Shown here: positions 1 through 13,700 of the stretch, in pieces | Position numbering within the stretch: the stretch's first letter is position 1 | Layout of the letters: each line of letters starts with the position of its first letter | Notes under the pieces: model-generated | What the model was told of the DNA's origin: nothing | Databases searched by the model: none | Seen by the model: the letters and a program-made list of their open reading frames with translations, nothing else | Made by a program: the position numbers and the translations under genes | Source of the DNA: Lachnospiraceae bacterium | Lineage (GTDB): Bacteria > Bacillota > Clostridia > Lachnospirales > Lachnospiraceae | Length of the DNA stretch: 64,000 bases | Direction of reading: 5' to 3' | Assembly (NCBI GenBank): GCA_015057525.1 | Contig: SVEE01000006.1 | Coordinates: forward strand, 62,001 to 126,000

Positions 1-872
1 ACAAGCTTCAAAAAAGCCATAACAATTGTTCCGCCTAAGCTAGCCAACATAGCAAAAACAGGACATACCACATTAGGTCTCTTAGTTTTATTAACACTTG
101 TAACAAAGCCCACAACAGCTAATATCAAAACTATAACAAAAGCTACAATAATTAATATTGTAAATGTACCCAGTACTCCTGATATTTCAGGACTAGCCTC
201 ATATGCTTCCTCTGCCGCATCCTTCCAAATATTCTTAGTTCCCACATCTCCCCAGTAATTCATATAAATATGATATACAGGATCAGAATTAAATACAGCA
301 GCAAAAATTATTGTAAGCAAAGCGAATGTACCTGTTAAAATCGAAAAAATCTTAAGCATTGTATTATTTACTGCAACTGGTGCTCTCATACCGCCAAAAC
401 CCATCTGTGGTTGCGCCATTGCCGGCTGACCATATCTCATCTGTGGTTGTGCCATCACAGGTTGGCCATAGTTCATCTGCGGTTGCGCCATCCCTGGCTG
501 ACCATAGTTCATCTGCGCAGGAGCCATTCCCATCTGAGAACTTGGTGCTCTCTCTGTAAATTCTAATGGCTGACCAGAAGAAGTACCCATTCCATTTTCA
601 GGAAGGAAGACTGTTCTTGAATCATCGCCAATTGCTGTTTCATAATTCTCTGGTATTAAGACTGTTTTAGAGTCATCGCCAACCGCTGATTCATAATTTC
701 CTGGTATTAAAATAGTTCTTGAATCATCACCTAATCTTTCATGTTCCTGAGGGGTCTGATGATTAATAACCTGCTCAGGTGCTACATTTGAGAAAGATTC
801 TGCACTAGCTCCACAAACCGGACAATATTCCATTCCGTCAGGAGAAATATTTCCACATATTGGACAATTCAT
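1..872 (-). CDS. Zinc-ribbon membrane protein with tandem repeats (3' end outside window)
   Basis: Reading from an ATG at 872 (RBS AAAGAGGTG just upstream) gives about 290 residues without a stop before the window edge. A zinc ribbon is formed by Cys 3, 6, 17 and 20. Residues 49-94 hold three 17-residue repeats of the form GDDS(R/K)T(V/I)(L/F)(I/L)P, with Thr at 53, 70 and 87. Residues ~120-157 hold a 12-residue Met/Gln/Pro-rich repeat (MNYGQPxMAQPQ type). Two or more hydrophobic segments follow, so the C-terminal part is membrane-embedded. Similar zinc ribbon plus repeat architecture occurs in proteins that work with FHA domains and Ser/Thr kinases, both encoded at 38-40.6 kb here; that link is inference. 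The function is unknown. Confidence 0.75.
   Translation of the reverse strand, partial: MNCPICGNISPDGMEYCPVCGASAESFSNVAPEQVINHQTPQEHERLGDDSRTILIPGNYESAVGDDSKTVLIPENYETAIGDDSRTVFLPENGMGTSSGQPLEFTERAPSSQMGMAPAQMNYGQPGMAQPQMNYGQPVMAQPQMRYGQPAMAQPQMGFGGMRAPVAVNNTMLKIFSILTGTFALLTIIFAAVFNSDPVYHIYMNYWGDVGTKNIWKDAAEEAYEASPEISGVLGTFTILIIVAFVIVLILAVVGFVTSVNKTKRPNVVCPVFAMLASLGGTIVMAFLKL
402..509. repeat. 36-bp tandem repeat inside the zinc-ribbon gene
   Basis: The hexamer CATCTG recurs at 402, 438, 474 and 510, giving an exact 36 bp period. On the coding strand each unit encodes 12 residues of the Met-Ala-Gln-Pro-Gln-Met-x-Tyr-Gly-Gln-Pro type. Units differ at only a few bases, so copy number could change by slippage. 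Confidence 0.85.
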
Positions 873-945: not shown

Positions 946-1827
946 TTACGACATAAAATCAAAAATTGAAAGCTGAGTACCTGTAGTTTTATTTTTGTAC
1001 TCTCTCATATATCTGAACAACTCTTCTCTGTCATAAACTATTCCATGTTCCTTACAGGTGTCAGTAACTATTCTAGTTAGTTCTTGATTATTAGGACTAT
1101 TTACTTCGTAAGCATCTCCATAGGTTTCAATGTACTTTTCCTTCATGCCTGGGAACTTCTTATCCAATTGCTCATAGAAATATTCTCTATTTCCATCTCT
1201 AAGGGTAAGTCCTGCACCAAAATACATAATTCCGTACACTCCTGCCTTAACACAATAATCAAGCAACCCTCTTATATTTTCTTCTGTATCGTTAATAAAC
1301 GGCAAGATAGGTGATATCCACACAATAGTAGGTATCCCTTTCTCCTTCATAGCCATGAGAACCTCGAATCTCTCTTTTGTAGTACATACACCTGGTTCTA
1401 TAACTTTACAAAGTTCTTCATCATAAGTAGTCAATGTCATAGCCACGACGCACTTTGTTTTTTTGTTGATTTTCTCCAGAATGTCTATATCCCTCATAAT
1501 TAAATTTGACTTAGTCTGAATCACCAGACCAAAATCGAATCTTTCTATTTGATTGAGACATCTTCTTGTTATCTGAAGTTCTTCTTCAATTGGCACATAT
1601 GGGTCTGTCATAGAACCTGTTGAAATCATACTCTTTGTTCTCTTTCTCTTGAGAGTATGCTCCAAAATATCCTCGGCTCTTGCCTTAATTTCAATATCCT
1701 CAAAATCATGATTCATACGGTAGCATTTACTTCTGGAATCACAGTAAATACATCCATGAGTACAGCCTCTATACAAATTCATTCCATTTTGAGGAGATAA
1801 TATTGCTTTTACCTCTTTGTAATGCAT
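946..1827 (-). CDS. Radical SAM protein of the SPL (spore photoproduct lyase-like) family
   Basis: 293 residues. The radical SAM cluster motif CX3CX2C is at Cys 22, 26 and 29 (CTHGCIYC), placed very near the N-terminus in an RGCxHGCxYC context typical of the SplB-like/Rv2578c-like radical SAM families. Such enzymes bind a [4Fe-4S] cluster and SAM and produce a 5'-deoxyadenosyl radical; the substrate here cannot be read from the sequence. It begins only 15 nt after the stop of the SMC-like gene at 1843-6255, so it is almost certainly co-transcribed with the JetABC-like genes, as the fourth gene where a Wadjet operon would normally carry jetD. It could be an unrelated passenger, or a DNA/nucleotide-acting partner. 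Confidence 0.85.
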   Translation of the reverse strand: MHYKEVKAILSPQNGMNLYRGCTHGCIYCDSRSKCYRMNHDFEDIEIKARAEDILEHTLKRKRTKSMISTGSMTDPYVPIEEELQITRRCLNQIERFDFGLVIQTKSNLIMRDIDILEKINKKTKCVVAMTLTTYDEELCKVIEPGVCTTKERFEVLMAMKEKGIPTIVWISPILPFINDTEENIRGLLDYCVKAGVYGIMYFGAGLTLRDGNREYFYEQLDKKFPGMKEKYIETYGDAYEVNSPNNQELTRIVTDTCKEHGIVYDREELFRYMREYKNKTTGTQLSIFDFMS

Positions 1828-1842
1828 ATGCTCCGTCCTTTT

Positions 1843-4800
1843 CTAGATAAAGTCGAAACTTACCTGTTCAAATTCTAAATCCTTATACTCCAACTCTTCC
1901 TGGTCAACCTTGCTTGTATAATCAGTAACAACAGTAAGCTGTTTTCCCCCTGACATCTGCTGACCAAGTATATAATTCACATCGAATCTTCCTGTTATTG
2001 CCGGTGTTGCACCTCTGGCTGGAACAATCAACTGAACATTATTAGCTTTAAGAAGAGCAAATATTGGTTCCCATATATATACATCCTTTGCCGCACCAAA
2101 TGGATTATCTATGAATATAGTTTTTGTTCGTATATCCTCATTACCAGTCTGATACATACCTGAAATATAATTTATTACAGAAACCAAAAACTGTATATAT
2201 ATACCCTGAGACTGTCCAGTACTACCAACAGCCTCCTCATATCTGAGATATCTACTCTGCTCTTTAATACGCTCACGTTTGTAAAGATTCAACTTGATTC
2301 CATTCATGTCAGTTACTATTACACCAAATAACTTCTTCAATGTAAGGCTGTTTCTTATAAACTTAATTCTATCCTTATCATTTTCATAGTCATCCGCCTG
2401 TGCAACAACCTTATCTATGTAATCTGACATTTTCTGTTTCAAAAATTCATCCTTTACATACGGTATAGTGAGACCGACCATCTGTATAGCTTCCCCATCA
2501 GCAATAATACGAGAAAGCTTAGGCAACTTGTCAAGCTCTGTCTTAACATCAAGGCATCTTTGTAAACACTGTTCCTCAAAATTAGCTTTGATGGTTTCCA
2601 TATCCGAAAGACTCTTCTCAACTCTATCTTTCTCAAGGGCAATATATTCCACAATCGTCCTTAAATTCTCCATAAGAGCTTTTGCTTCTTCATAGTCCTC
2701 AGGGATTACAACATCATCTCGTATTGTGTTTGCAAGTTCAAACACCTCCATGCGGTCCAATGATGATGCGGTATTTCCTTTGAATTTAATAAGCTCATTT
2801 TTAGCCTTGTCAAGGCTCTTGTTACTCTTATCAAATTTAAGAAGATTTTCTTCAAATATGTCTCTAAGCTTATCTTTTTCTTCAACTAATGGAGTTGCTC
2901 CATCAAGACTTATGTCATTGGTTGTAATTATACGTTTAACATCCTTGTATAAATCCACCATATAGCCCTGTTGTCTGAAATATCGCTTGTAGCTTTCATC
3001 GCATTCCTTTGCTTCCCTGTCAAGACGGGCCAAAATTTCTTCACCACTTTCAAGACTGGCAATTATCTCTGAAAGCGAGGCTTCTTCCTCCACATAAGCA
3101 CCAAAAGCATCCTCGATATTTTTTATGGCATAAGATATACTTCCCTCTAATCTACTTATGGATTGTTCTCTGTCACGAAGTATTTTCTCATATTCTGAAA
3201 ACTGTTCTTTTGCATCAGCTATATTCTTTCTTCCAATTTCAAGAACATTTTCATCAGATACAAAAAGCTTATTTTCATATTCCAACTCTCTGAGTTTGTC
3301 CAGCGAAACCCCTCGTTTTTCAATACTTTTAAGACTTCTATCCATAGATATTTTAAGCGTCTCCATAAGAAGTCTCTTATCCTCTATTGCCTTCGCATCA
3401 TCTTTTCCTGCTGAAAGCATAGCCGTAAATCTTGCTTTAATTTCATCATCACCTAAAGTAAGATTGTCGTAATCTCCATCCACATTATAATAGGCTTTAT
3501 ATACGGAATCCCACTCATCAGCAATTTCTTGTTGCTTTCTCTCCAATGCCTTGAGCTTTGACTCTTCTTCAGCAACGTCCATGTTGTTGTCATCGGCCTT
3601 TGCCTCAAGCTGTCTTATATCTTCTTCCAGCCTTTCCATATTTGCTTTTGCAGTCTGACTTATTACCTCCTGCTGATTAATCAACTCCGAAAGCTGATTT
3701 GCAGTATAAAGCTTATTAATATCAGAAAGACATGTTTCATATCTGTTTTGATAATCAGCTATAGCTTCCCTTGCCTTTTCTATGGCAATCCTATATCTTC
3801 TTATCTTTTCTTCGCATTCTTTTATATCTTCACCAAGCTTTTCTGATAATTCCCTTGCCTTAATCAATCTATCACCAGCAGTTATAAACTCACTGTCAGA
3901 TATTTTAAGAACAAATTCCTGATCCTCTCTATAAGCCTGAAGCATTTCCTCTTTTACCTCAAGCTGCATATGAAGGTCTTTGTTTCGATCCTGCTCTGCC
4001 TTAATCAGTTTTTGAATAGTCTCCGCATCCGTCAAATATTCACCTGTTGCATGCACAGCAAAGGCATTCTCTCCAAAATAAAGAGCTTTTTCCTCAACTG
4101 CATCCATATCAAATATGGTAACTGTTTCATCGCCGGTATCAATACCTGTTATATTAGGATCAGCTTTTATATTTTCGTAATCCTTTACCAAAATACCATA
4201 TGGTATCTCTGGATTTACAGTAAGCACCTTCATTTGATGTTCAGGCTTAAGTGCAGACAAATAATCCATTCCTGTCATAGCTGTTACACCATGTCGTGTC
4301 TCTATATAATCAAGCACTTTTTGAGCAGCCTTGGATGCTCCTACAATTCTGCCTTCCTTAAGACGTTCTACATATTTGTCGCTCTTGGCTATAGATTTTT
4401 CAATAGCAGATTTATCTAATACTGCTTGAGTAATTCTTTCTCTTATTATCTCAGAAAGCTCGCCTTCATCCTTTGCAAGATAAACAGCCTTAATATTCTC
4501 AAGTTTATCCCAAGCTTCCTTATATTCCTTTTCCTTGCTGGAAATATTATCTATAACCCTGTCATTCTCAGTTTTTTTATTGTGAAGAATTGAGAGCTGA
4601 AGTTGTTCTTCCCCAAGAAGCTTTTTATTTTCCTCTGTTTCTTCTTCCTTCTCTCTTATCTTATTCTGAATCAATTCTAGTTCCGACTGATCATCTTCCA
4701 TCTGCATAGATATTTCAGTAAACTTTATGTTGTTCATAGATAATCTTATTGCAGATAAATTTTCACTGAGTTTTACAATTTCATCATCAGCTGTTTTCTT

Positions 4801-6255
4801 TGAATTCTCAGCAACAGCGATGTTGATTTTCGCTTCATGCAAAAGTCTTTGGTCATATTCATTTTTTAATCTGTTTGCATTAAGTTTTTCCTGTATTGCT
4901 GTAATCTGCCTACGAATATCTGTAAGAACGACATCTGTACGCATTTTTATATTGTAGGCATATGTATAAAGCATGTTCTCGTCAAAGGAAGACTCAGCCA
5001 TCATTGTTTTTACAACTGCATCATGTTGCTGATATTTTTTTCTGTCCTCCATATACTCGAAATACTCGTTAATGCCCTCTTTTAAATTGAGATCCTTTTC
5101 CAGTTCATCTATTCTTGCTCTAGCTTCAGTTATCTTTGATAAAATAGATTCCCTATCATTTTTCTGTTCCTCAAGCTGCTTCTTGTCTTTTGACACCTTA
5201 AGACATTCTATTCTTTCTCTTTGTCTGTTCTTCTCCGCATGCTTATCATCTCTTGCCTTAGCAAGTTCCTCCATACGAGCCTCATCATTTTTAGCAAATT
5301 CCTCGCCTGTAACACATATATCAGCAAGCACCTTGGTGAGACGACTCTTTTCTTTGTATAAATCCATGAAGGATTCCACCTTGTCAGACAAGACACCCAA
5401 CAGTTCTATCTGATGATCATATCCGGAAATATCTTTCTTTTTCTTCGCAAGTACAGTAAGCTGTTCCTTTATATCCATAAGCATCTTTGCCATGGATTCT
5501 GAACCATCCTCATCTCTCTCTGTCTTAACAAGAAATGCCTTCTCAATAATTTCCTCAATAAGTAAATCCTCAACAACCTTCCTTGTGGTCTTATAATTAT
5601 TCTCAAAATATGTTCTTACATGACCTTCTGTTTTGTTGATTCCTCTAATTATTTCCCACTGGCTCTCATGAATACCATAGTTACTTATATATCTTTGATA
5701 TTCACCCTTTCTGTCAAAAACCCTTACCATAAGAGACATATCTCTATGCTCTAAGTCTTTAAGATAATTTTTCAAGCCTTGGAAAGTAACTCTTTCTCCA
5801 TCCTTAACAAGAGGAAGATTAATAATATCATTTTTATTAAATTCTCTGTAGAAAATACAATAATTGAAATACTCTATGGATGCTACATCTTTCTTTTCTT
5901 CAACATCTCCCTCAGAATCCTTAGCCTTTCTAGCGCAAAATCCGGTGGTCATGTACCTATAGCCATCTGTACTGTCTGCTTCATCAAGCTTCCACTCAAC
6001 AAGAGAATGTATAGTAGTATTTCCGTTACCTGTTCTAAACATTTTCTCTATAGGCTGTTTTTCATCCAAGGTACAATTAGGAATCATATTCTGTAAAAGA
6101 AGAAGCATAAGTACACTTTTACCACCACCATTAGCCAAGTCATAAAGTGTATTTTTTCCATGCATCCTCATGGTGAAGTCATCATAATACTGAGTGCCAA
6201 AATTGTATTTAACATTATTAACTCTTATTCTGTTAATACTAGGCATCCACTTCAC
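1843..6255 (-). CDS. JetC/MukB-like SMC ATPase (Wadjet/Mks type)
   Basis: 1470 residues. An SMC-like architecture is visible: Walker A at residues 41-47 (ANGGGKS), a very long charged helical/coiled-coil region from ~200 to ~1270, an ABC-signature-like STGQSQG at 1345-1351 and a Walker B segment at 1379-1384 (TIFIDN). The length and the partner genes match JetC/MksB/MukB-type condensins that load onto DNA and extrude loops. The position after the Walker B Asp is Asn (D1383-N1384) where most SMC/ABC ATPases have the catalytic Glu. The start overlaps the upstream jetB-like gene by 17 nt, indicating translational coupling. The family assignment rests on architecture and neighbours, with no profile search. 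Confidence 0.85.
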   Translation of the reverse strand: MKWMPSINRIRVNNVKYNFGTQYYDDFTMRMHGKNTLYDLANGGGKSVLMLLLLQNMIPNCTLDEKQPIEKMFRTGNGNTTIHSLVEWKLDEADSTDGYRYMTTGFCARKAKDSEGDVEEKKDVASIEYFNYCIFYREFNKNDIINLPLVKDGERVTFQGLKNYLKDLEHRDMSLMVRVFDRKGEYQRYISNYGIHESQWEIIRGINKTEGHVRTYFENNYKTTRKVVEDLLIEEIIEKAFLVKTERDEDGSESMAKMLMDIKEQLTVLAKKKKDISGYDHQIELLGVLSDKVESFMDLYKEKSRLTKVLADICVTGEEFAKNDEARMEELAKARDDKHAEKNRQRERIECLKVSKDKKQLEEQKNDRESILSKITEARARIDELEKDLNLKEGINEYFEYMEDRKKYQQHDAVVKTMMAESSFDENMLYTYAYNIKMRTDVVLTDIRRQITAIQEKLNANRLKNEYDQRLLHEAKINIAVAENSKKTADDEIVKLSENLSAIRLSMNNIKFTEISMQMEDDQSELELIQNKIREKEEETEENKKLLGEEQLQLSILHNKKTENDRVIDNISSKEKEYKEAWDKLENIKAVYLAKDEGELSEIIRERITQAVLDKSAIEKSIAKSDKYVERLKEGRIVGASKAAQKVLDYIETRHGVTAMTGMDYLSALKPEHQMKVLTVNPEIPYGILVKDYENIKADPNITGIDTGDETVTIFDMDAVEEKALYFGENAFAVHATGEYLTDAETIQKLIKAEQDRNKDLHMQLEVKEEMLQAYREDQEFVLKISDSEFITAGDRLIKARELSEKLGEDIKECEEKIRRYRIAIEKAREAIADYQNRYETCLSDINKLYTANQLSELINQQEVISQTAKANMERLEEDIRQLEAKADDNNMDVAEEESKLKALERKQQEIADEWDSVYKAYYNVDGDYDNLTLGDDEIKARFTAMLSAGKDDAKAIEDKRLLMETLKISMDRSLKSIEKRGVSLDKLRELEYENKLFVSDENVLEIGRKNIADAKEQFSEYEKILRDREQSISRLEGSISYAIKNIEDAFGAYVEEEASLSEIIASLESGEEILARLDREAKECDESYKRYFRQQGYMVDLYKDVKRIITTNDISLDGATPLVEEKDKLRDIFEENLLKFDKSNKSLDKAKNELIKFKGNTASSLDRMEVFELANTIRDDVVIPEDYEEAKALMENLRTIVEYIALEKDRVEKSLSDMETIKANFEEQCLQRCLDVKTELDKLPKLSRIIADGEAIQMVGLTIPYVKDEFLKQKMSDYIDKVVAQADDYENDKDRIKFIRNSLTLKKLFGVIVTDMNGIKLNLYKRERIKEQSRYLRYEEAVGSTGQSQGIYIQFLVSVINYISGMYQTGNEDIRTKTIFIDNPFGAAKDVYIWEPIFALLKANNVQLIVPARGATPAITGRFDVNYILGQQMSGGKQLTVVTDYTSKVDQEELEYKDLEFEQVSFDFI

Positions 6256-6952
6256 CTCCTAACACCTTATATATCCTACCCTTATACTCTTCAAAATAAT
6301 TTTCAACAACTGCCTTGAATCTGTCTGTAGGATAATATCTGTCCTCTACAGAAACAAAAAGTTTCTGTTCCATAAGGAAATTAAATGTAAGCTTAACATA
6401 GCCAGTTCTTGATGCTCGTGAAGCTCTATTTTTATCTTTCTCGTCAGATGTCACTACAGGAAGTTCATCCCAAAGCAACGCTATAGTTTTAAAACTATCC
6501 TCTTCAAGTTCGTCCATTGAGTATATAGACAAATCAGAAGTTATAGCAGAAAGATATGTAGAAATTTGTTCCAAAATATCTTCCAATTTCACATATTCTT
6601 TAACCTGATATGATGCTGAATCCTGATAAAAGGACAAAAGAATGTTGTACATTATGAAGTACACCATATAAAGTTCTTTGTTTAATCGTAACCCCAGCTG
6701 ACGCTTCATATCATCATTTGTGTACCCAAAAATTCTATTACCTTCACCTGCTGTCACATATATTGCATCATTATACTCATATATATCAAGATTAAGCTTT
6801 TTAACTAATTTTGTTGTAATATCATACACTGCTGAGTTTGTATAAAATTCTTCATACATATCTCTTGTGTCAGGGTTTGAACGGGATATTTCTTTTCCAG
6901 TTATTAATGCTGCATATATATCAAGTGCCTTATCTAAGCTTCTTTCTTCCAT
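6239..6952 (-). CDS. JetB/MukE-like subunit of the SMC complex (DUF6063-like)
   Basis: 237 residues, mostly helical, without signal peptide or membrane segment. Its ATG follows the stop codon of the jetA-like gene directly (TAAATG), and its 3' end overlaps the SMC gene by 17 nt. This size and its position between a ~530-residue MukF-like gene and a giant SMC gene are those of MukE/JetB kite-like winged-helix subunits, which bind the kleisin. I recall this group as DUF6063 in Firmicutes. The sequence itself has no catalytic motif. The call is mainly contextual. Confidence 0.75.
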   Translation of the reverse strand: MEERSLDKALDIYAALITGKEISRSNPDTRDMYEEFYTNSAVYDITTKLVKKLNLDIYEYNDAIYVTAGEGNRIFGYTNDDMKRQLGLRLNKELYMVYFIMYNILLSFYQDSASYQVKEYVKLEDILEQISTYLSAITSDLSIYSMDELEEDSFKTIALLWDELPVVTSDEKDKNRASRASRTGYVKLTFNFLMEQKLFVSVEDRYYPTDRFKAVVENYFEEYKGRIYKVLGGEVDA

Positions 6953-8557
6953 TTATCCCTTCCCCCTTTCAAAAACCATATCAGTAACTGTAAATTTTTC
7001 TATTTCCTTTGGTTTGACAGTTGCCTCGTCTTCGTCATCTTTTTTGTATGAAAGATATGAAACTAACTCAACCTGTTCCTCTCCAAAAGAAATATCAAAT
7101 ACCATATCCTTGAATTTTTCCTTTTCATCCTCTGCCATATTTCGGATAACCATTTCCTCAAGAAGAGTGTCTTGTTTCTCCAACATACGAGCCATACTGT
7201 ACTCTCTTTTACCTGCAAGATGCACCAAGAAAGAATAGTAATCTCTATTGGCAAATATTTCTTCTCCAAATTTAATCTCTAGTATTCCATTTAACTCTTT
7301 TAAGGTAACCCTATTCCACTTGTTAATCTGGTCAAGCAACTCATAAAATATCTTCGCAAAATTGGCACCAATTTTCTTGTCCAGAATTTCATCCTCATAT
7401 TCAAAATCTAAGTCTAATTTATTCTTCTCTACTTTTTCACCCTTAAGCTTGTCCTCTGATTTTAAAGTAAGCATATTGTCTATGGATTTCATAGAAAATG
7501 TTTTATCTAGCCTTGGTGAAAAAAGAGGCATAACAACATGAGCCATTTTAGATGGTTCATCCTCTGCCATAATTTTCAGCAGAGTCTGTCTAAAGTCAAA
7601 TATAGGTCTTAATTTTCTTAACTTTGCCCTGCTAATTATATTATCTGAAATTTGCTGTAATTCCATTGTTTCAGCAATAAGCTGACTATGATTATATATT
7701 GTCTTTTTGAGTTCAGTTTCAAGCTTACTTATATCTTCTAACGCTTTAGACTTAAGCGTAGGCACACCATCCTCATTACCGTTTTCAAAGGAAGCCTTCT
7801 CTATAGCCTTATCCACAAGTGCCTTGTTTTTTGCAAAAAGCTTTTGCTCTTCACTAAACCATTTTGCTGTTGTGTCCATATATTTTTCGTAGGCTTTAGC
7901 ACCTTCAAAAATATCTATTCCAAGAAGTTTCAAAACTTGCTCTTTTTCAAGCTTAAGTTGAATAACCTGACTATTAATTCTTTTTACTACATCAATTCCA
8001 CCCTTAAAATTGTTTGAGCTAATCATCTTCTCAAGAAGGAGCTGAGACACATTTATCTTGCTTTCATCTTTTATTTCCTTAGTATCAAGATAGAATTCTA
8101 TACCATCAGAGGTAATTGTATAAAGAACCTGACCATTTTCTATTCTACTTTCAATAAGCTTTATTCTTGCCACCTTACTTGCTCTGTTCTCAGGGTCATA
8201 AAATTTAAACTCAAATGCTTTTCCATCATTTTTAAGCTTATCAAAAATATATAAGATTAACTGTTTTTCATCTTCAGCTGGTTCTTCCAAATCGAAGTCC
8301 CTTCGCAAAAGTTCAGACATAAAACCCTCATATTCTTCATATGTAATATCCTTCTCATGGAAATTATTTTCGTTAATCAAAAAACGCAAGGATGCCATCG
8401 TAATATAACCCATGTCAAGAAAACCATATTTTCCGTCTTTATATTGGGAAAATGTGGTTTCATTTAACACAAAGAATGGGTAATATTTTTTAAGATTCTG
8501 CATTCTTGCGCTATGCTCTGCAATTATGTCATTTATCATAACGTGCTTTAGTGCCAT
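6953..8557 (-). CDS. JetA/MukF-like kleisin subunit (DUF5716/JetA family)
   Basis: 534 residues from the ATG at 8557. This start is chosen because AGAGG lies six bases before it (GAAGAGGTACTC-ATG); an ORF extension of 17 residues upstream has no such site. The protein is charged and helical, with a probable winged-helix N-terminal part and coiled-coil centre, and no membrane segment. Its place as first gene before jetB- and jetC-like genes and its length fit the Wadjet JetA family (formerly DUF5716), the MukF-like kleisin that bridges SMC heads. Whether the complex is a plasmid defence system or a housekeeping Mks condensin cannot be decided here. Confidence 0.8.
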   Translation of the reverse strand: MALKHVMINDIIAEHSARMQNLKKYYPFFVLNETTFSQYKDGKYGFLDMGYITMASLRFLINENNFHEKDITYEEYEGFMSELLRRDFDLEEPAEDEKQLILYIFDKLKNDGKAFEFKFYDPENRASKVARIKLIESRIENGQVLYTITSDGIEFYLDTKEIKDESKINVSQLLLEKMISSNNFKGGIDVVKRINSQVIQLKLEKEQVLKLLGIDIFEGAKAYEKYMDTTAKWFSEEQKLFAKNKALVDKAIEKASFENGNEDGVPTLKSKALEDISKLETELKKTIYNHSQLIAETMELQQISDNIISRAKLRKLRPIFDFRQTLLKIMAEDEPSKMAHVVMPLFSPRLDKTFSMKSIDNMLTLKSEDKLKGEKVEKNKLDLDFEYEDEILDKKIGANFAKIFYELLDQINKWNRVTLKELNGILEIKFGEEIFANRDYYSFLVHLAGKREYSMARMLEKQDTLLEEMVIRNMAEDEKEKFKDMVFDISFGEEQVELVSYLSYKKDDEDEATVKPKEIEKFTVTDMVFERGKG

Positions 8558-8626
8558 GAGTACCTCTTCATAATGTAGTATACTTATAAAAATACACAAT
8601 ATAGGCATTTTTACATAGATACATTA

Positions 8627-8655
8627 ATTTTAATACATTACGAAAAAGAATACAA
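8627..8655 (-). promoter_or_regulatory. Sigma-A promoter for the jetABC-like operon
   Basis: TTGTAT (8650-8655), a 17 bp spacer and TAAAAT (8627-8632) lie upstream of the jetA-like start at 8557. This gives a leader of about 60 nt. The promoter lies just beyond the chemoreceptor terminator at 8670-8699, so the operon appears to be an independent transcription unit. Confidence 0.6.
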
Positions 8656-8669
8656 GTTTTTAATGCAAA

Positions 8670-8699
8670 CAAAAAGTGTAGCACAAACTACACTTTTTG
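8670..8699 (-). terminator. Rho-independent terminator of the chemoreceptor gene
   Basis: A 12 bp stem (8670-8681 with 8688-8699) with a six-base loop is followed on the minus strand by a T-rich tract. It lies 9 nt beyond the chemoreceptor stop. Confidence 0.8.
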
Positions 8700-8707
8700 C
8701 TTATATA

Positions 8708-10756
8708 TTATTTGGCAAATTGATTTAAAACATTATCCAAACGTTCAGCCAATTCTTTATTTTGTTCAGACTGTTTTTGAATATCCTCAGCAATTTCAGA
8801 GGTATTCTCACTCTTCGAAACTAATTCATTAATAGCACATCTATTATCATTTGTAATTTGAACTACACTAGAAATATGCTCAGATATTCCATTAAATGAT
8901 ACTCCTAATGCATCAACGCTACCCTTAGCCTCCATAAGTTCGCTTATAATTTCATTTACATTCTCGCTGTAATGCAATGATTTATCTGCAAAATCTTTAA
9001 ACTTATCCATATCCTCTGATATAAAATTAATTATATATTCAAAGCAATCATTTACTGCATCAATACTTCCATTTGCCTCTGCACACAATACCTGGATTGT
9101 CGCTGCTGTATTTTGGGAATCTTCTGCAAGCTTACCAATTTCATTTGCTACAACAGCAAATCCCTGACCTGCTTCTCCTGCTCGTGCAGCCTCAATAGAA
9201 GCATTAAGCGACAACAAATTTGTTTGATGAGAAATGCTCAAAATACCTGATGCCAAATCATTGATTTTACTAAGACTTCCTAATCTTTCTATAGCCTCAT
9301 CAACAGACTCTCTTGTTCTATACAATGCATCCTTTCCGCTTTCATACGTAGCCGATGCCTGTTCTTTCATATCACAAGCACTAGAAAGAACTCCATCACC
9401 TGTATGAACAGATTCCTGAATGTTTTTCATTATATTCCCAACAATATCATTTATTACTTTTATCTCCCTAGCAACTTCATTCATGTACTGATTAGTACTT
9501 TCCATCTGTGCAGAAAGTTCTTCTGCAGTTGCCAAATCATCTGTAACATTCATAACTAGTTTTGAAGCAGATGTATGCATCTGTTCTGCTTTTTCATCCA
9601 AAATATCTCCACATTCCTGAAGTGTGCCTGTTATTTCTCTAAGAGAGTTAACTAAGCTTTCTGTAGCCTGTGAGATATCTCCAATTTCGTCTCCTCTTCC
9701 AGAATATTTTTTCATTGAATCCTTTTCGGATATATCAAGATTTTTTAATTCAATTATACTCTTATCTATAAACTTCATAGGTTTTAACAGCATCTGAATA
9801 ATGAAATATGATATAACACAAAGTGCAATAACTGCTATAACACAAATAATAACCAATGTTCTCTTCAATGAAATTGTTTCTGCAAAAACCTCATCTTCGC
9901 TGTCAGAAAGAAGGAATAACCAACCATATTCTGACATATAATAATAACCAGCTATATACTCTTTTGAATCCTGCTTATATTCTATATAACCACTCGCATC
10001 TGAATCAGATTTACTCACCTTTTCGCATAAGTCAACAATATATGACTCATCAACCGGAATGGCAATTTTTTCTTCATCTGCATTAAAAATGTATTCTCCG
10101 GTTCTAGTATTAACCATACAATACTGTGCATTTTCCATTCCTTTTAAGCTTAGATTATCAAGTATATCTATTAAGCCGTTTGTAAAAACACCACCGCCAA
10201 CCAAACCTATTGGATTACCTTTTTCATCATATACAGCTTTATATAATGAAACTATCTGCTGACCACTTGCCGGAGAAATAATAATTCCTGTATTATACAC
10301 ACCATCACCAGCTTCTAATAACGAATTTTGAAGAGCCGCCAAAGGATCGCCTTCTCTTGTAATAATACCAACTACATTGACATTTGTATGCGCAAGAACA
10401 TGCGTATTCCATTCACTCGCGTATAAACCTTCCAAATTATTAATATCCGCAGAAAATGTCTCTGTATATTTTTGCGCATTTTCTACAATTGCTTGATCCT
10501 CAGGATGTTGCATTATATCATAAATCTCACCTGCTCTACTATATGCAAGCAATGTACTTTCTGTTTCTGATACATAATTTTGAATTATCTGACTTCTTTC
10601 CTGTACAATAATTTCCAAATTGTCAGTTATTGTTTCTTTATTATCTTCCGTAATAGTATTGATAACAAAAAAAGCTAACCCCGTCATAACAATCAGCTGT
10701 ATTATCATAATACAACCAATAATCTTCTGTCCCAATGACATGTTTTTTATACCCAT
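8708..10756 (-). CDS. Methyl-accepting chemotaxis protein with periplasmic-type Cache sensor
   Basis: 682 residues. A membrane segment near residues 12-33 is followed by a ~265-residue extracellular region with the layout of a double Cache domain, then a second membrane segment near 300-322, a HAMP-like linker ending in DEIGDI, and a cytoplasmic methyl-accepting helical hairpin. The hairpin tip reads [18 protein letters not shown], the conserved CheA/CheW contact. It should sense an extracellular small molecule; the ligand is unknown. No other chemotaxis gene is in the window. It is transcribed divergently from the XRE gene at 10888 and has its own promoter and terminator. Confidence 0.95.
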
Positions 10757-10842
10757 AGACCCCCTCCTGTTCTAATAATACACCTACATCTCCACCAGAA
10801 TCATGTGCATTATTTTATCTATTTGCACTAATAGTTTATTAC

Positions 10843-10871
10843 ATTATATCTTCTTTAATATTAAAATGCAA
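10843..10871 (-). promoter_or_regulatory. Sigma-A promoter of the chemoreceptor
   Basis: TTGCAT (10866-10871), a 17 bp spacer and a consensus TATAAT (10843-10848) precede the start at 10756, giving a leader of about 80 nt. The -35 box lies in the leader of the divergent XRE gene, so the regulator could act here. No sigma-D type TAAA-N15-GCCGATAA match was found. Confidence 0.7.
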
Positions 10872-10887
10872 TAGTAGAGGCGATTAG

Positions 10888-11247
10888 ATGATTGACTCCA
10901 AAACTATAGGTGCAAGAATACGAGAAAAACGACGCGAAAAAGGTATGTCACAAGAAAAATTAGCAGAGCTTTGTGATGTTGGAACAACCCACATATCTCA
11001 CATTGAAACTGGGAACTGTGTACCTAGTCTTAAGATATTTATAAAAATAATTAATGTTTTATCATGTTCCGCTGACGAAATATTACGTGACGAACTAATC
11101 AAAGCTGAACTAACATATTCATCAGAAATTTCCAAACTTTTATCCGACTGCACAAGTCACGAACTAATGATACTTACAGAAACTCTTTCTTCATTGAAAA
11201 ATTCATTAAGAAAAAAAGATTTCCTAAACACAGACGTTCTAAAATAA
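10888..11247 (+). CDS. XRE-family helix-turn-helix transcriptional regulator
   Basis: 119 residues. An N-terminal Cro/CI-type HTH covers about residues 5-65 (IGARIREKRREKGMSQEKLAEL, then THISHIETG). The C-terminal ~50 residues are helical with no recognised effector domain. The ATG at 10888 is preceded by AGAGGCG. It is one of few plus-strand genes and is divergent from the chemoreceptor, so autoregulation or control of the shared intergenic region is plausible but unproven. Confidence 0.9.
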   Translation: MIDSKTIGARIREKRREKGMSQEKLAELCDVGTTHISHIETGNCVPSLKIFIKIINVLSCSADEILRDELIKAELTYSSEISKLLSDCTSHELMILTETLSSLKNSLRKKDFLNTDVLK

Positions 11248-11304
11248 AAATAGTTGAAAAACATCTGTTGTTTTCAGGCTAACATGGTTAAAAAATGACA
11301 TAAA

Positions 11305-11327
11305 AAAGAGCTGTAAAACAGCTCTTT
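11305..11327 (-). terminator. Rho-independent terminator of the first rpn gene
   Basis: A 10 bp perfect stem (11305-11314 with 11318-11327, core AAAGAGCTGT) has a three-base loop and is followed by TTTTTTA on the minus strand. The XRE gene converges on it from the other side but lacks a U-tract there. Confidence 0.8.
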
Positions 11328-11350
11328 GGTGTGTAAACTAATTAATTGCA

Positions 11351-12253
11351 TTAACTTAAATATTTCTCTAAAATTTTCTCCTCATCATAACTCGGAGCAA
11401 ATGCACTAGCTATATCACAAATATTTACAACAACAGATACATCTTCCTCAAGTTCTTCTGCTATGCTCTCCACAGACTTCCCTTTTCGAAGCTTACGGCA
11501 TACTTGAGTAATAAGTTTTATTTCTTTACCTATCTCTATCCCAATCTCTTTTCCTTCTCTTCTGACATCTGCGTCATGGCAAAAAGTTTTCATATACTCA
11601 ACTCTCCATTCCTTATTACAGCGGGCTTTTGACACTGAACGTTCCAACCCTTCCGTATAATCATCACAAATCTCACCAGTTTCTATGTACCTCAAAAAAT
11701 TCTCTGTATCCTTGTCAACATTACACACGATACCTTTTGTGTTGTAAATAAGAATCTTCCTGCCATCCCCGAGATAAATATCCTCCATGTCATCAAAACC
11801 TTTACAGATATTTTCAAACTCGTAACAACAAAGTCCTTTATCAAACGGGTCAAATGTACAAATGAAAATAACATAACTGTCGAGGAGCTCAGAATACTCA
11901 TCACCAGTTTCCAAGTGATTAAGGTCCATAAGTCCCTGATAAAATCTGGAACGCTTAGGAAGAACAACATTTTCTTTCTGCTGCATCTCTGCATCATACA
12001 GTCCAGTGGATTCATCCTCTACATAAACATCATACCTGACAGCTTTCCCATCAACAGCAACCTTAATTGCTTTCTGGTTGTTGATGGAAATATTGTCCCC
12101 AATGACATTACCTGTAAGACGTTGCAGCATCTCAACACAATTACTAGGTTCCTGCATAACCTTGCCAAAGATAAAGTCATCTTTTAATGTTAATCTTTCG
12201 TACTGCGCCTCTATTTCACGAGGCGTTAAATTGGTTGCATAATTCTTGTTCAT
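11351..12253 (-). CDS. Rpn-family recombination-promoting nuclease (PD-(D/E)XK fold)
   Basis: 300 residues. The N-terminal LTLKDDFIFGKVM and the later RYDVYVEDE...YDAEMQ segment are the characteristic features of the Rpn/'PD-(D/E)XK family transposase' group, where Asp and the E-x-Q pair form the nuclease site. The C-terminal part is a charged helical region ending in a small HTH-like segment (KGKSVESIAEELEEDVSVVV). Proteins of this family promote RecA-independent recombination and can cut DNA; several are toxin-like. It stands alone, with RBS AGGAG and its own terminator. It is not an insertion sequence, as no terminal inverted repeats flank it. Confidence 0.85.
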   Translation of the reverse strand: MNKNYATNLTPREIEAQYERLTLKDDFIFGKVMQEPSNCVEMLQRLTGNVIGDNISINNQKAIKVAVDGKAVRYDVYVEDESTGLYDAEMQQKENVVLPKRSRFYQGLMDLNHLETGDEYSELLDSYVIFICTFDPFDKGLCCYEFENICKGFDDMEDIYLGDGRKILIYNTKGIVCNVDKDTENFLRYIETGEICDDYTEGLERSVSKARCNKEWRVEYMKTFCHDADVRREGKEIGIEIGKEIKLITQVCRKLRKGKSVESIAEELEEDVSVVVNICDIASAFAPSYDEEKILEKYLS

Positions 12254-12466
12254 AATAGAATTACTCCTTTCTTACCCAGGAGAATTACTTCTATTCATAC
12301 TATATTTCGTGAAATCTCCTGCTGTTTTTTAATGTGAATATTTAGCATAGATTCCTTTGAAATATAAAAGCCGAACGGCTAAATGAATTATAGAACAAAT
12401 AGATATATGCCACTTTCAGATTAACATATATCCATTCCTTACGTCAATAAATTATAAATGAAAAAC

Positions 12467-12486
12467 ATCATGCCTATAGGCATGAT
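12467..12486 (-). terminator. 20-bp perfect palindrome, terminator-like on the minus strand
   Basis: The sequence is a self-complementary 20-mer centred on CCTATAGG. On the minus strand it is followed by GTTTTTC, so it could end a transcript that has run through the large inverted repeat. It adjoins the outer edge of that repeat exactly. Confidence 0.5.
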
Positions 12487-12824
12487 ATTATTGCGTACTC
12501 ACAGGTACATTACATCTGCGAGGATTTCTTTGGCGCAAAAGATAAAGCCACCATATTCATTTAAACCAACACTTGCGAAAAGGTATTACACATTTCTTAT
12601 GTTCGAACGAAAAAACAGCAACACGCTAACACGGATGTTAGCGTAGGCGTGCTGGACAGGATGTCCGGTGTACGCCGTGTTGCGTAAAAAAGAAAACCTT
12701 AATTCGAACATTAGAAATTGTTATACCTTGTAGCGTGTTGGGTTAAATAAATATTGTAGCTTTATCTTTTCCCAAAAAAGAAATCCCACAGATGCAATGC
12801 ACCTGCGGGACTATACGCAATAAT
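12487..12824. repeat. ~340 bp imperfect inverted repeat with a two-hairpin apex
   Basis: The two arms are diverged inverted copies of one ~130-140 bp sequence. Matching blocks pair in order: 12487-12497 with 12814-12824, 12522-12531 with 12777-12786, 12537-12548 with 12759-12770, 12580-12586 with 12723-12729, 12599-12607 with 12703-12711, and 12618-12625 with 12676-12683. Between the arms are two short hairpins, 12623-12631/12636-12644 and a second from GGCGT at 12646 to ACGCC at 12672-12676 with core GGACA/TGTCC. The layout could be a MITE-like element, an inverted duplication, or a long structured RNA. Its family is not recognised. Confidence 0.85.
12774..12810 (-). terminator. Rho-independent terminator of fba
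   Basis: A 12 bp stem with two G-U pairs (12784-12795 with 12799-12810, loop of three) is followed on the minus strand by a T-rich run (TTTCTTTTTT). It lies 27 nt beyond the fba stop and forms part of the right arm of the large inverted repeat. Confidence 0.75.
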
Positions 12825-12836
12825 CTTAATACAATA

Positions 12837-13700
12837 TTAAGCCTTACCTACTGAACCAAAAAGTTCCATCTTCTCTTTTACAGTTGCCTTAATAGCATCT
12901 GCGCCTGGAGCAAGAAGCTTACGAGGGTCAAATCCCTTACCTTCAAGATCCTTGCCAGCCTCGATGTACTTTCTAGTAGCTTCCTGGAATGCTAACTGAC
13001 ACTCAGTATTAACGTTAATCTTAGAAACACCAAGTGAAATAGCCTTCTGAATCATATCTGCTGGAATACCTGTACCACCGTGAAGAACAAGTGGCATATC
13101 ACCTGTCTTCTGCTGAATAGCATCAAGTGTATCAAAGCTAAGACCAGCCCAGTTATCTGGGTACTTACCATGAATGTTACCGATACCTGCTGCAAGCATA
13201 GTTACACCAAGATCTGCAACCATCTTACACTCATCTGGATCTGCACACTCACCAGCACCTACAACACCGTCTTCTTCTCCACCGATTGAACCAACTTCTG
13301 CCTCGATAGAAATACCCTTCTCGTTGCAAAGCTTAACAAGCTCTGTAGTCTTAGCTACGTTCTCTTCGATTGGATAGTGTGAACCATCAAACATAACTGA
13401 TGAGAAACCAGCCTCGATACATGCTAAAGCACCTTCGTAGCTGCCGTGATCAAGGTGAAGTGCAACAGGAACTGTAATCTTAAGCTCCTCAAGCATACCA
13501 TTAACCATACCTACGATTGTCTTATAACCACACATATACTTACCAGCGCCTTCTGAAACACCTAAGATAACAGGTGAATTAAGTTCCTGTGCTGTTAAAA
13601 GAATTGACTTTGTCCACTCAAGATTGTTGATGTTGAACTGACCAACAGCATACTTACCAGCTTTTGCCTTAGTTAACATCTCTTTTGCTGAAACTAACAT
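12837..13700 (-). CDS. fba: Class II fructose-1,6-bisphosphate aldolase
   Basis: 287 residues, the usual length. The zinc-dependent enzyme converts fructose 1,6-bisphosphate to glyceraldehyde 3-phosphate and dihydroxyacetone phosphate in glycolysis. Diagnostic stretches are the VALHLDHGS block (catalytic Asp and zinc His), SIEAEVGSIGGEEDG, GNIHGKYP and the phosphate-binding LHGGTGIP. The ATG at 13700 has the RBS GGAGG. It appears monocistronic, with a TATAAT -10 box at about 13765-13771 and the terminator at 12784-12810. The residues of the active site look complete. Confidence 0.97.
   Translation of the reverse strand: MLVSAKEMLTKAKAGKYAVGQFNINNLEWTKSILLTAQELNSPVILGVSEGAGKYMCGYKTIVGMVNGMLEELKITVPVALHLDHGSYEGALACIEAGFSSVMFDGSHYPIEENVAKTTELVKLCNEKGISIEAEVGSIGGEEDGVVGAGECADPDECKMVADLGVTMLAAGIGNIHGKYPDNWAGLSFDTLDAIQQKTGDMPLVLHGGTGIPADMIQKAISLGVSKINVNTECQLAFQEATRKYIEAGKDLEGKGFDPRKLLAPGADAIKATVKEKMELFGSVGKA

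Follow-up and report, generated by a model that had tools for sequence, protein, structure and literature searches.

A type III JetABC operon without JetD, followed by a radical SAM gene, in a Lachnospiraceae bacterium

We analysed a 64,000-nucleotide stretch of DNA from a Lachnospiraceae bacterium (assembly GCA_015057525.1, contig SVEE01000006.1, positions 62,001 to 126,000 of the forward strand), hereafter called the window. Between window positions 946 and 8608 it carries four consecutive genes, all on the minus strand, which encode the three subunits of a JetABC complex of the structural maintenance of chromosomes (SMC) type and a spore photoproduct lyase (SPL)-like radical SAM protein (rSAM) (Table 1). 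An earlier note on this DNA, made from the sequence alone, had described these four adjacent genes, and the observation was confirmed by PADLOC type III models and Pfam matches. The JetA3, JetB3 and JetC3 models match over nearly the full length of the window proteins. JetA and JetB are separated by 0 nt, JetB and JetC overlap by 8 nt, and 15 nt separate JetC from rSAM. The JetA start is probably 8557, because conservation begins at Met18, which is nearly invariant among type III JetA proteins. Conservation of JetC begins at the in-frame ATG at 6246 (M4 invariant), which is likely the true start. The promoter that the earlier note had assigned to the operon was not recovered: a scan of 8480-8800 gave no sigma-70-like site on the minus strand and one on the plus strand, with 2.2 expected.

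Table 1. Features of the JetABC-rSAM locus in window coordinates (ORF, open reading frame; KITE, kleisin-interacting tandem winged-helix element).
Feature	Position	Strand	Evidence
jetA-like kleisin gene	6953..8557, ORF opens 8608	minus	PADLOC PDLC00560 JetA3, 711 bits
jetB-like KITE/MukE-like subunit gene, DUF6063, 237 aa	6239..6952	minus	PDLC00571 JetB3, 348 bits; PF19539, 159.5 bits
jetC-like SMC ATPase gene	1843..6246, ORF opens GTG 6255	minus	PDLC00581 JetC3, 1827 bits
SPL-like radical SAM protein (rSAM) gene, 293 aa	946..1827	minus	PF04055 match; Fe-S motif CTHGCIYC intact
JetC C-terminal tail EQVSFDFI and stop codon	1843..1869	minus	sliding-clamp-binding-like hexapeptide
rSAM C-terminal tail GTQLSIFDFMS, pentapeptide QLSIF	949..981	minus	sliding-clamp-like motif
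terminator-like hairpin between upstream gene and jetA	8670..8699	scored on plus	1 found, 0.0 expected

JetC contains the motifs ANGGGKS, STGQSQG and DNPFG. The residue after the Walker B aspartate is usually the catalytic glutamate in SMC proteins; in the window JetC it is an asparagine (IDNPFG, window 2080-2118). DNPFGAA was found in 107 of 110 JetC rows (six repeats among them), and the JetD-bearing L064 and L065 have DNPFA. The predicted fold of JetA has a predicted local distance difference test (pLDDT) score of 77.9, and its top-ranked matches are chains of MukBEF structures, presumably MukF, with an E value of 3e-4 and TM-scores of only 0.15-0.21. With this modest pLDDT and these low TM-scores, the model serves as support only. 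Sequence searches against solved structures gave only coiled-coil matches for JetC among the 60 rows listed and no match for rSAM.

Absence of JetD and genomic context of JetABC

The locus lacks JetD, as the earlier note had stated. The window's own genome (2.35 Mb, 97% complete) gave no match to JetD_C (PF09983) and none to the JetD model PDLC00591, which matched no control genome either. The model PDLC00592 gave one 19.5-bit match in a frame with a stop, overlapping genes for a UDP-GlcNAc 2-epimerase and a polysaccharide deacetylase, and it was rejected as a JetD by its position among sugar-biosynthesis genes. PF09983 is imperfect for type III systems; it missed the JetD3 of G233, yet PDLC00592 caught this protein. 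The JetA model PDLC00560 matches in 36 of 250 genomes from this family (33 strong, 3 weak). No JetD was seen beside JetABC in the 33 strong loci, three of which have a contig that ends inside the operon (L053, L054 and L060), or in the 80 loci of JetC relatives described below, with type III and type I/II queries. The three weak loci have JetD3 upstream of JetA.

The earlier note had also considered a jetD gene elsewhere, close to another copy of jetABC. None was found in the window's own genome. Ten of the 33 genomes with a strong JetA do have a JetD_C match, always on another contig, which is close to the family background of 80 of 250; two of these matches lie in short frames and one scores below the cut-off. 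A set of 50 genomes, made up of 49 that have rSAM behind JetC and that of L128, gave JetD_C matches in 8, none of them positioned inside the Jet loci examined. G151 and G174, two of the ten, have a separate type III system of D-A-B-C order in addition to the JetD-less locus; in these second systems the JetC of L224 was typed by PADLOC and the remainder by size and order. The JetD-bearing type III loci L224-L226 and L228-L237 show the order JetD-JetA-JetB-JetC by ORF size, and the type I/II loci that were read have JetD last.

In bacteria with MukBEF, that complex replaces Smc-ScpAB, and a replacement of this kind by JetABC would leave genomes without ScpA. All 47 genomes tested here contain ScpA, the 36 JetA-positive ones among them, as do 26 of 26 further genomes. 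A role of JetABC as a replacement for Smc-ScpAB was therefore rejected, and the JetABC condensin is additional to Smc-ScpAB. JetC had no match among phage records and one weak match among plasmid records (25% identity over 20%). The genes dnaX, ybaB and recR lie just upstream of JetABC in 12 of 33 family loci, and Pfam named all three in L036. This context belongs to a sister clade, and the context of the window clade is JetABC-rSAM-malic enzyme. JetABC was read behind dnaX-ybaB-recR in L031-L033, L035-L039, L043, L049, L051, L060 and L181, and in several such loci a large protein with weak tetratricopeptide repeat (TPR) matches comes next. L046, L055, L057 and L223 share a downstream block of malic enzyme, an AAA_3 (MoxR-type) ATPase, a DUF58-type protein and a transglutaminase protein.

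The window locus is similar to type III Wadjet in its JetA3, JetB3 and JetC3 subunits, its DNPF variant of Walker B and its clamp-like JetC tail. It differs in that no JetD was found in it, whereas the JetD-bearing loci that were read run D-A-B-C, and the JetD-bearing loci scanned best match PADLOC subfamilies other than those of the window. With MksBEF and MukBEF it shares an operon of SMC, kleisin and KITE genes without a nuclease and, at low TM-score, the fold ranking of the JetA model; unlike them, its genes belong to the type III Jet sequence family, rSAM is the fourth gene and ScpA coexists. According to the accessible text of one study, MukBEF and likely MksBEF have been suggested to descend from Wadjet, MksBEF through loss of JetD (PMC10586767).

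Linkage of rSAM to JetC and loss of the Fe-S motif

When named genomes were scanned with an alignment of JetC, 367 relatives were found, and the best 80 were taken for locus reading. These genomes are mostly metagenome-assembled, and the trees are quick trees with support from the Shimodaira–Hasegawa-like approximate likelihood ratio test (SH-aLRT) only. rSAM follows JetC on the same strand in 54 of these 80 loci, at a median gap of 22.5 nt. The JetC tree has 104 rows, and rSAM was scored when it was one of the two ORFs after JetC. The 56 rows with rSAM all fall in one clade of 59, which also holds L128 and L048, without rSAM, and L166, which ends inside JetC. rSAM thus stands behind JetC in 56 of 58 readable loci of one Lachnospiraceae clade, in which JetC identity goes down to about 40%. 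Outside the clade it was found in 0 of 43 JetD-less rows, although several of these contigs stop soon after JetC. The tree and tail counts omit six loci that repeat genomes and JetC rows that are too short or cut by a contig end, and the root of the JetC tree is not trusted because the outgroup sits on very long branches. The conservation of rSAM in fourth position that the earlier note had asked about is therefore a property of this clade and not of JetD-less JetABC in general. A dedicated fourth-gene partner in other JetABC clades was rejected. Of five loci scanned, L137 has an aldose epimerase and a MurT ligase next, L138 a phosphoesterase, L128 an esterase, L178 an ABC ATPase and L182 a protein with weak TPR matches.

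The rSAM family is widespread: 124 of the 250 family genomes have it, mostly apart from Jet genes. An incidental pairing, to which the many unlinked proteins among the best rSAM matches had pointed, was rejected when wider sampling of JetC loci reversed that result. The order could also have been inherited passively, if JetABC inserted a single time in front of rSAM and malic enzyme in some ancestor and rSAM has no functional tie to JetABC. This would account for the malic enzyme downstream of rSAM in 52 of 54 rSAM-bearing loci, for the similar grouping in the JetC and rSAM trees, as vertical descent predicts, and for the L048/L124 lineage, which has JetABC and malic enzyme without rSAM. We nevertheless consider it rather unlikely. 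The junction of JetC and rSAM is tighter than that of rSAM and malic enzyme, where the median gap is 133 nt and exceeds 300 nt in 22 of 52 loci, and 47 neighbourhoods of unlinked rSAM genes contain neither malic enzyme nor a recognisable type III Jet gene. A locus-specific role is also indicated by purifying selection on rSAM proteins that have lost the Fe-S motif, with an intact copy elsewhere in 14 of 24 genomes, and by residues conserved only in linked rSAM proteins, as described below. In the same 47 neighbourhoods there is no type I/II Jet gene save one 75-residue, 44-bit JetC1 match, and no widely shared context, only small groups, mostly of the far branch.

Two loci outside this pattern carry rSAM-family copies near other operons. 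L260 contains a type I JetABCD at 4884-12880 (JetA, JetC and JetD by PADLOC, JetB by size) with an intact rSAM-family copy about 110 nt behind it, in the same genome as L160. L261 has a similar copy about 7.7 kb behind an operon with gene sizes like those of L260. In the window, the protein encoded directly downstream of rSAM (3-872, minus strand) has an N-terminal CxxC ribbon and QPQMNYGQP-type repeats, and its relatives come after rSAM in several loci. A PD-(D/E)XK transposase-family gene (PF12784) lies at 11351-12253 on the minus strand, about 2.7 kb upstream of jetA.

The window rSAM has an intact CX3CX2C [4Fe-4S] motif. Its AlphaFold2 model has a pLDDT of 94.8, with the C-terminal tail as the lowest-pLDDT end, and the best folds include pyruvate formate-lyase (PFL)-activating enzyme and SPL, with 14-17% identity to solved SPL structures. 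It scores 159 of 360 and 149 of 430 bits against the NCBIfam PA0069 and Rv2578c equivalogs, well under the cut-offs. The protein thus resembles SPL and the SplB-like PA0069 and Rv2578c families in its radical SAM fold and motif, but differs from them in these scores, in its clamp-like tail and in the loss of the Fe-S motif in one linked branch.

This loss affects 24 of 57 readable linked rSAM proteins, a count that omits L129, where rSAM is shortened; two of the 33 rows with the motif repeat genomes from another collection. CX3CX2C is kept in 28 of 28 near unlinked rSAM proteins and in 45 of 46 from the wide unlinked loci. The exception is L217 (G072), which has the longest branch of all in the wider tree and falls close to the linked rSAM proteins. 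For the first rSAM tree the 28 closest available unlinked rows were taken, which is a biased choice, and 19 more, mostly distant, were added later. The 24 motif-less proteins, among them that of Eubacterium ruminantium ATCC 17233, form one branch (SH-aLRT 93 in the wider tree, 94 in the first). The motif-bearing linked proteins do not form one side of a branch in the wider tree, and near unlinked proteins nest among them. The ratio of non-synonymous to synonymous substitution rates (dN/dS) is 0.04-0.14 in eight of nine pairs of the motif-less branch, and the ninth pair is saturated. Given these ratios, the motif-less rSAM proteins, which stay full length, are not decaying but are under purifying selection. 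Their dN exceeds that of malic enzyme in 8 of 8 pairs and that of JetB in 5 of 7. A second full-length rSAM copy is present in 14 of the 24 genomes (56-59% identity), and all 14 copies retain CX3CX2C; one genome has a partial copy, and nine have no second rSAM beyond a 38-residue match in one. The residues P12, Q13, R275, Y277, N279 and G283 are conserved at 93% or more in 58 linked rSAM proteins, the motif-less ones included, and are not so conserved in the 28 near unlinked ones. The earlier note had suggested that rSAM might replace the effector. This found no support, and rSAM as a replacement nuclease or effector was rejected by the loss of the Fe-S motif and by the many JetABC loci without rSAM.

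Another possibility is that rSAM is a living SPL-like enzyme for DNA lesions, brought to newly replicated DNA by the clamp and JetABC. The intact motif of the window protein, SPL among its best folds and its QLSIF tail are consistent with such a role, as are the motif and the like tail (38 of 46) kept in the unlinked family. The role does not hold for the 24-genome motif-less branch, however, and the likeness to SPL is one of fold, at 14-17% identity to the solved structures. We regard this role as doubtful.

Sliding-clamp-like tails

In bacteria, clamp-binding proteins have a C-terminal QL(S/D)LF, and more variability is possible, according to the accessible text of PMC9690074. QLSIF of rSAM fits the strict pattern derived from this type of motif, and QVSFDF of JetC is a looser hexapeptide only; both are putative clamp-binding motifs. 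The strict pattern Q[LM][SDTN][LIMF]F was sought in the last 12 residues. It was found in 65 of 102 rSAM tails and in 0 of 1481 background tails, which are from mechanically called ORFs, some of them open at contig ends. Of 54 long ORF stretches in the window, only 1 has the pentapeptide in the 25 residues before its end. The two Y-family polymerases of the same genome, which served as a positive control, contain QMSLF and QYDLF, at internal places.

A loose penta- or hexapeptide pattern matched 98 of 100 JetC tails of JetD-less type III systems, 13 of 15 of JetD-bearing type III and 0 of 5 of type I/II; sampled JetC types were verified by PADLOC for L224, L239, L241 and L242. L237 (EQMELMDLF) was counted as a miss though its tail is related. 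For rSAM the pattern matched 38 of 46 unlinked proteins; among the linked ones it matched 28 of 33 that keep the Fe-S motif and 16 of 24 that lack it. The background gave 13 of 1483 tails.

The JetC tail QxxFDF could instead form a strand in the structure of the SMC head or touch the kleisin. The hexapeptide form occupies a near-constant place in 93 of 100 JetD-less tails, and the strict clamp pentapeptide was found in 0 of 96 JetC tails. The clamp reading of the JetC tail rests on its conservation and on its pentapeptide forms, which occur in 5 of 100 JetD-less tails (QTSLF, QTALF, QTSMF and QATLF) and in 7 of 15 JetD-bearing ones; in the JetD-bearing relatives the flanks are different, and QQELLF or QVTLF is present. 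A purely structural tail is not what these forms would suggest, and we think it improbable on balance. No mention of an rSAM partner or of clamp tails of Jet complexes was found in the accessible literature, judged from listed titles and abstract starts and from parts of PMC12287153 and PMC10123090; as most subscription papers lie outside this coverage, it is only a weak sign that these features are new. Among the matches listed, no paper treats clamp binding by Wadjet or Mks complexes, judged by title and the start of the abstract.

A possible role for the locus

We tentatively propose that the locus encodes a JetD-less type III JetABC condensin that is tethered to the sliding clamp, has an rSAM-derived partner and acts on the cell's own DNA, and that it is not a plasmid-cutting Wadjet. 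A role as a plasmid cutter is disfavoured because JetABC is often in stable chromosomal positions, coexists with ScpA and, in two genomes, stands beside a separate JetD3 system. Recruitment by the clamp is proposed because JetC and rSAM both end in tails like the DnaN-binding motif; these tails suggest, but do not prove, attachment to the DNA-copying machinery. JetABC, consisting of SMC, kleisin and KITE subunits, would work on the cell's own DNA. The clamp would bring it to freshly replicated DNA, where it may load and extrude or organise loops. The rSAM-derived protein would accompany it as a partner or adaptor, bound to the clamp and perhaps also to JetABC. In the branch of the window rSAM may remain an active SPL-like enzyme acting on DNA, and in the related branch of 24 genomes it may now be a pseudo-radical-SAM protein retained for a non-catalytic role.

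Several points weigh against this proposal. Clamp binding, chromosome work including loop extrusion, and physical contact of rSAM with JetABC are all inferred. JetABC is patchy, with 36 of 250 family genomes positive, and a JetD_C match elsewhere in the genome, as in 10 of the 33 with a strong JetA, might act in trans. JetABC without rSAM occurs in L048/L124 and L128, and rSAM was never seen in the sister clades; the malic enzyme retained downstream means that the conserved position of rSAM could be passive synteny. The motif-less L217 indicates that motif loss is not confined to Jet loci. As for the tails, none of the JetC tails fits the strict pattern, shuffled JetD-less JetC tails still give about 12 of 100 loose matches from composition, and the loose pattern does not match 8 of the 24 rSAM tails without the Fe-S motif. 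As the loose patterns were drawn up with the tails already in view, the case for a clamp tail is stronger for rSAM than for JetC.

The earlier note had left the choice between a condensin and a defence variant. Its interpretation is partly supported, and of its two alternatives we favour the housekeeping-type condensin. A defence variant, in which JetABC without JetD still senses small circular DNA and silences it, blocks replication at the clamp or uses rSAM as effector, would fit the patchy distribution, the intact rSAM behind the type I JetABCD of L260 and the like tail of JetD-bearing type III JetC, by which clamp recruitment could belong to target sensing, but it is quite improbable given an operon without a known nuclease, the Fe-S motif lost from many linked rSAM proteins, the repeated chromosomal contexts, the lack of phage matches with one weak plasmid match, and the two genomes with a separate JetD3 system.

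The proposal of a clamp-tethered condensin can be extended, with considerable doubt, to the whole type III family. All type III Jet complexes, with or without JetD, might be SMC motors tethered to the sliding clamp. One JetD-less Lachnospiraceae lineage would then have captured a clamp-binding rSAM enzyme as a dedicated fourth component, which became a pseudoenzyme adaptor in one branch, and a replication-coupled condensin would have arisen out of a plasmid-defence machine. PADLOC models label these JetABC proteins as defence proteins. If the proposal is true, it would give the replisome a direct link to an SMC family that is known for its part in plasmid defence, and show a plasmid-defence machine without its nuclease serving as a chromosomal condensin. 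It would also provide an example of a radical SAM enzyme turned into a non-catalytic partner. The clamp tails, if they are such, would also hint at the way in which replicating plasmids are located by JetD-bearing type III Wadjet.

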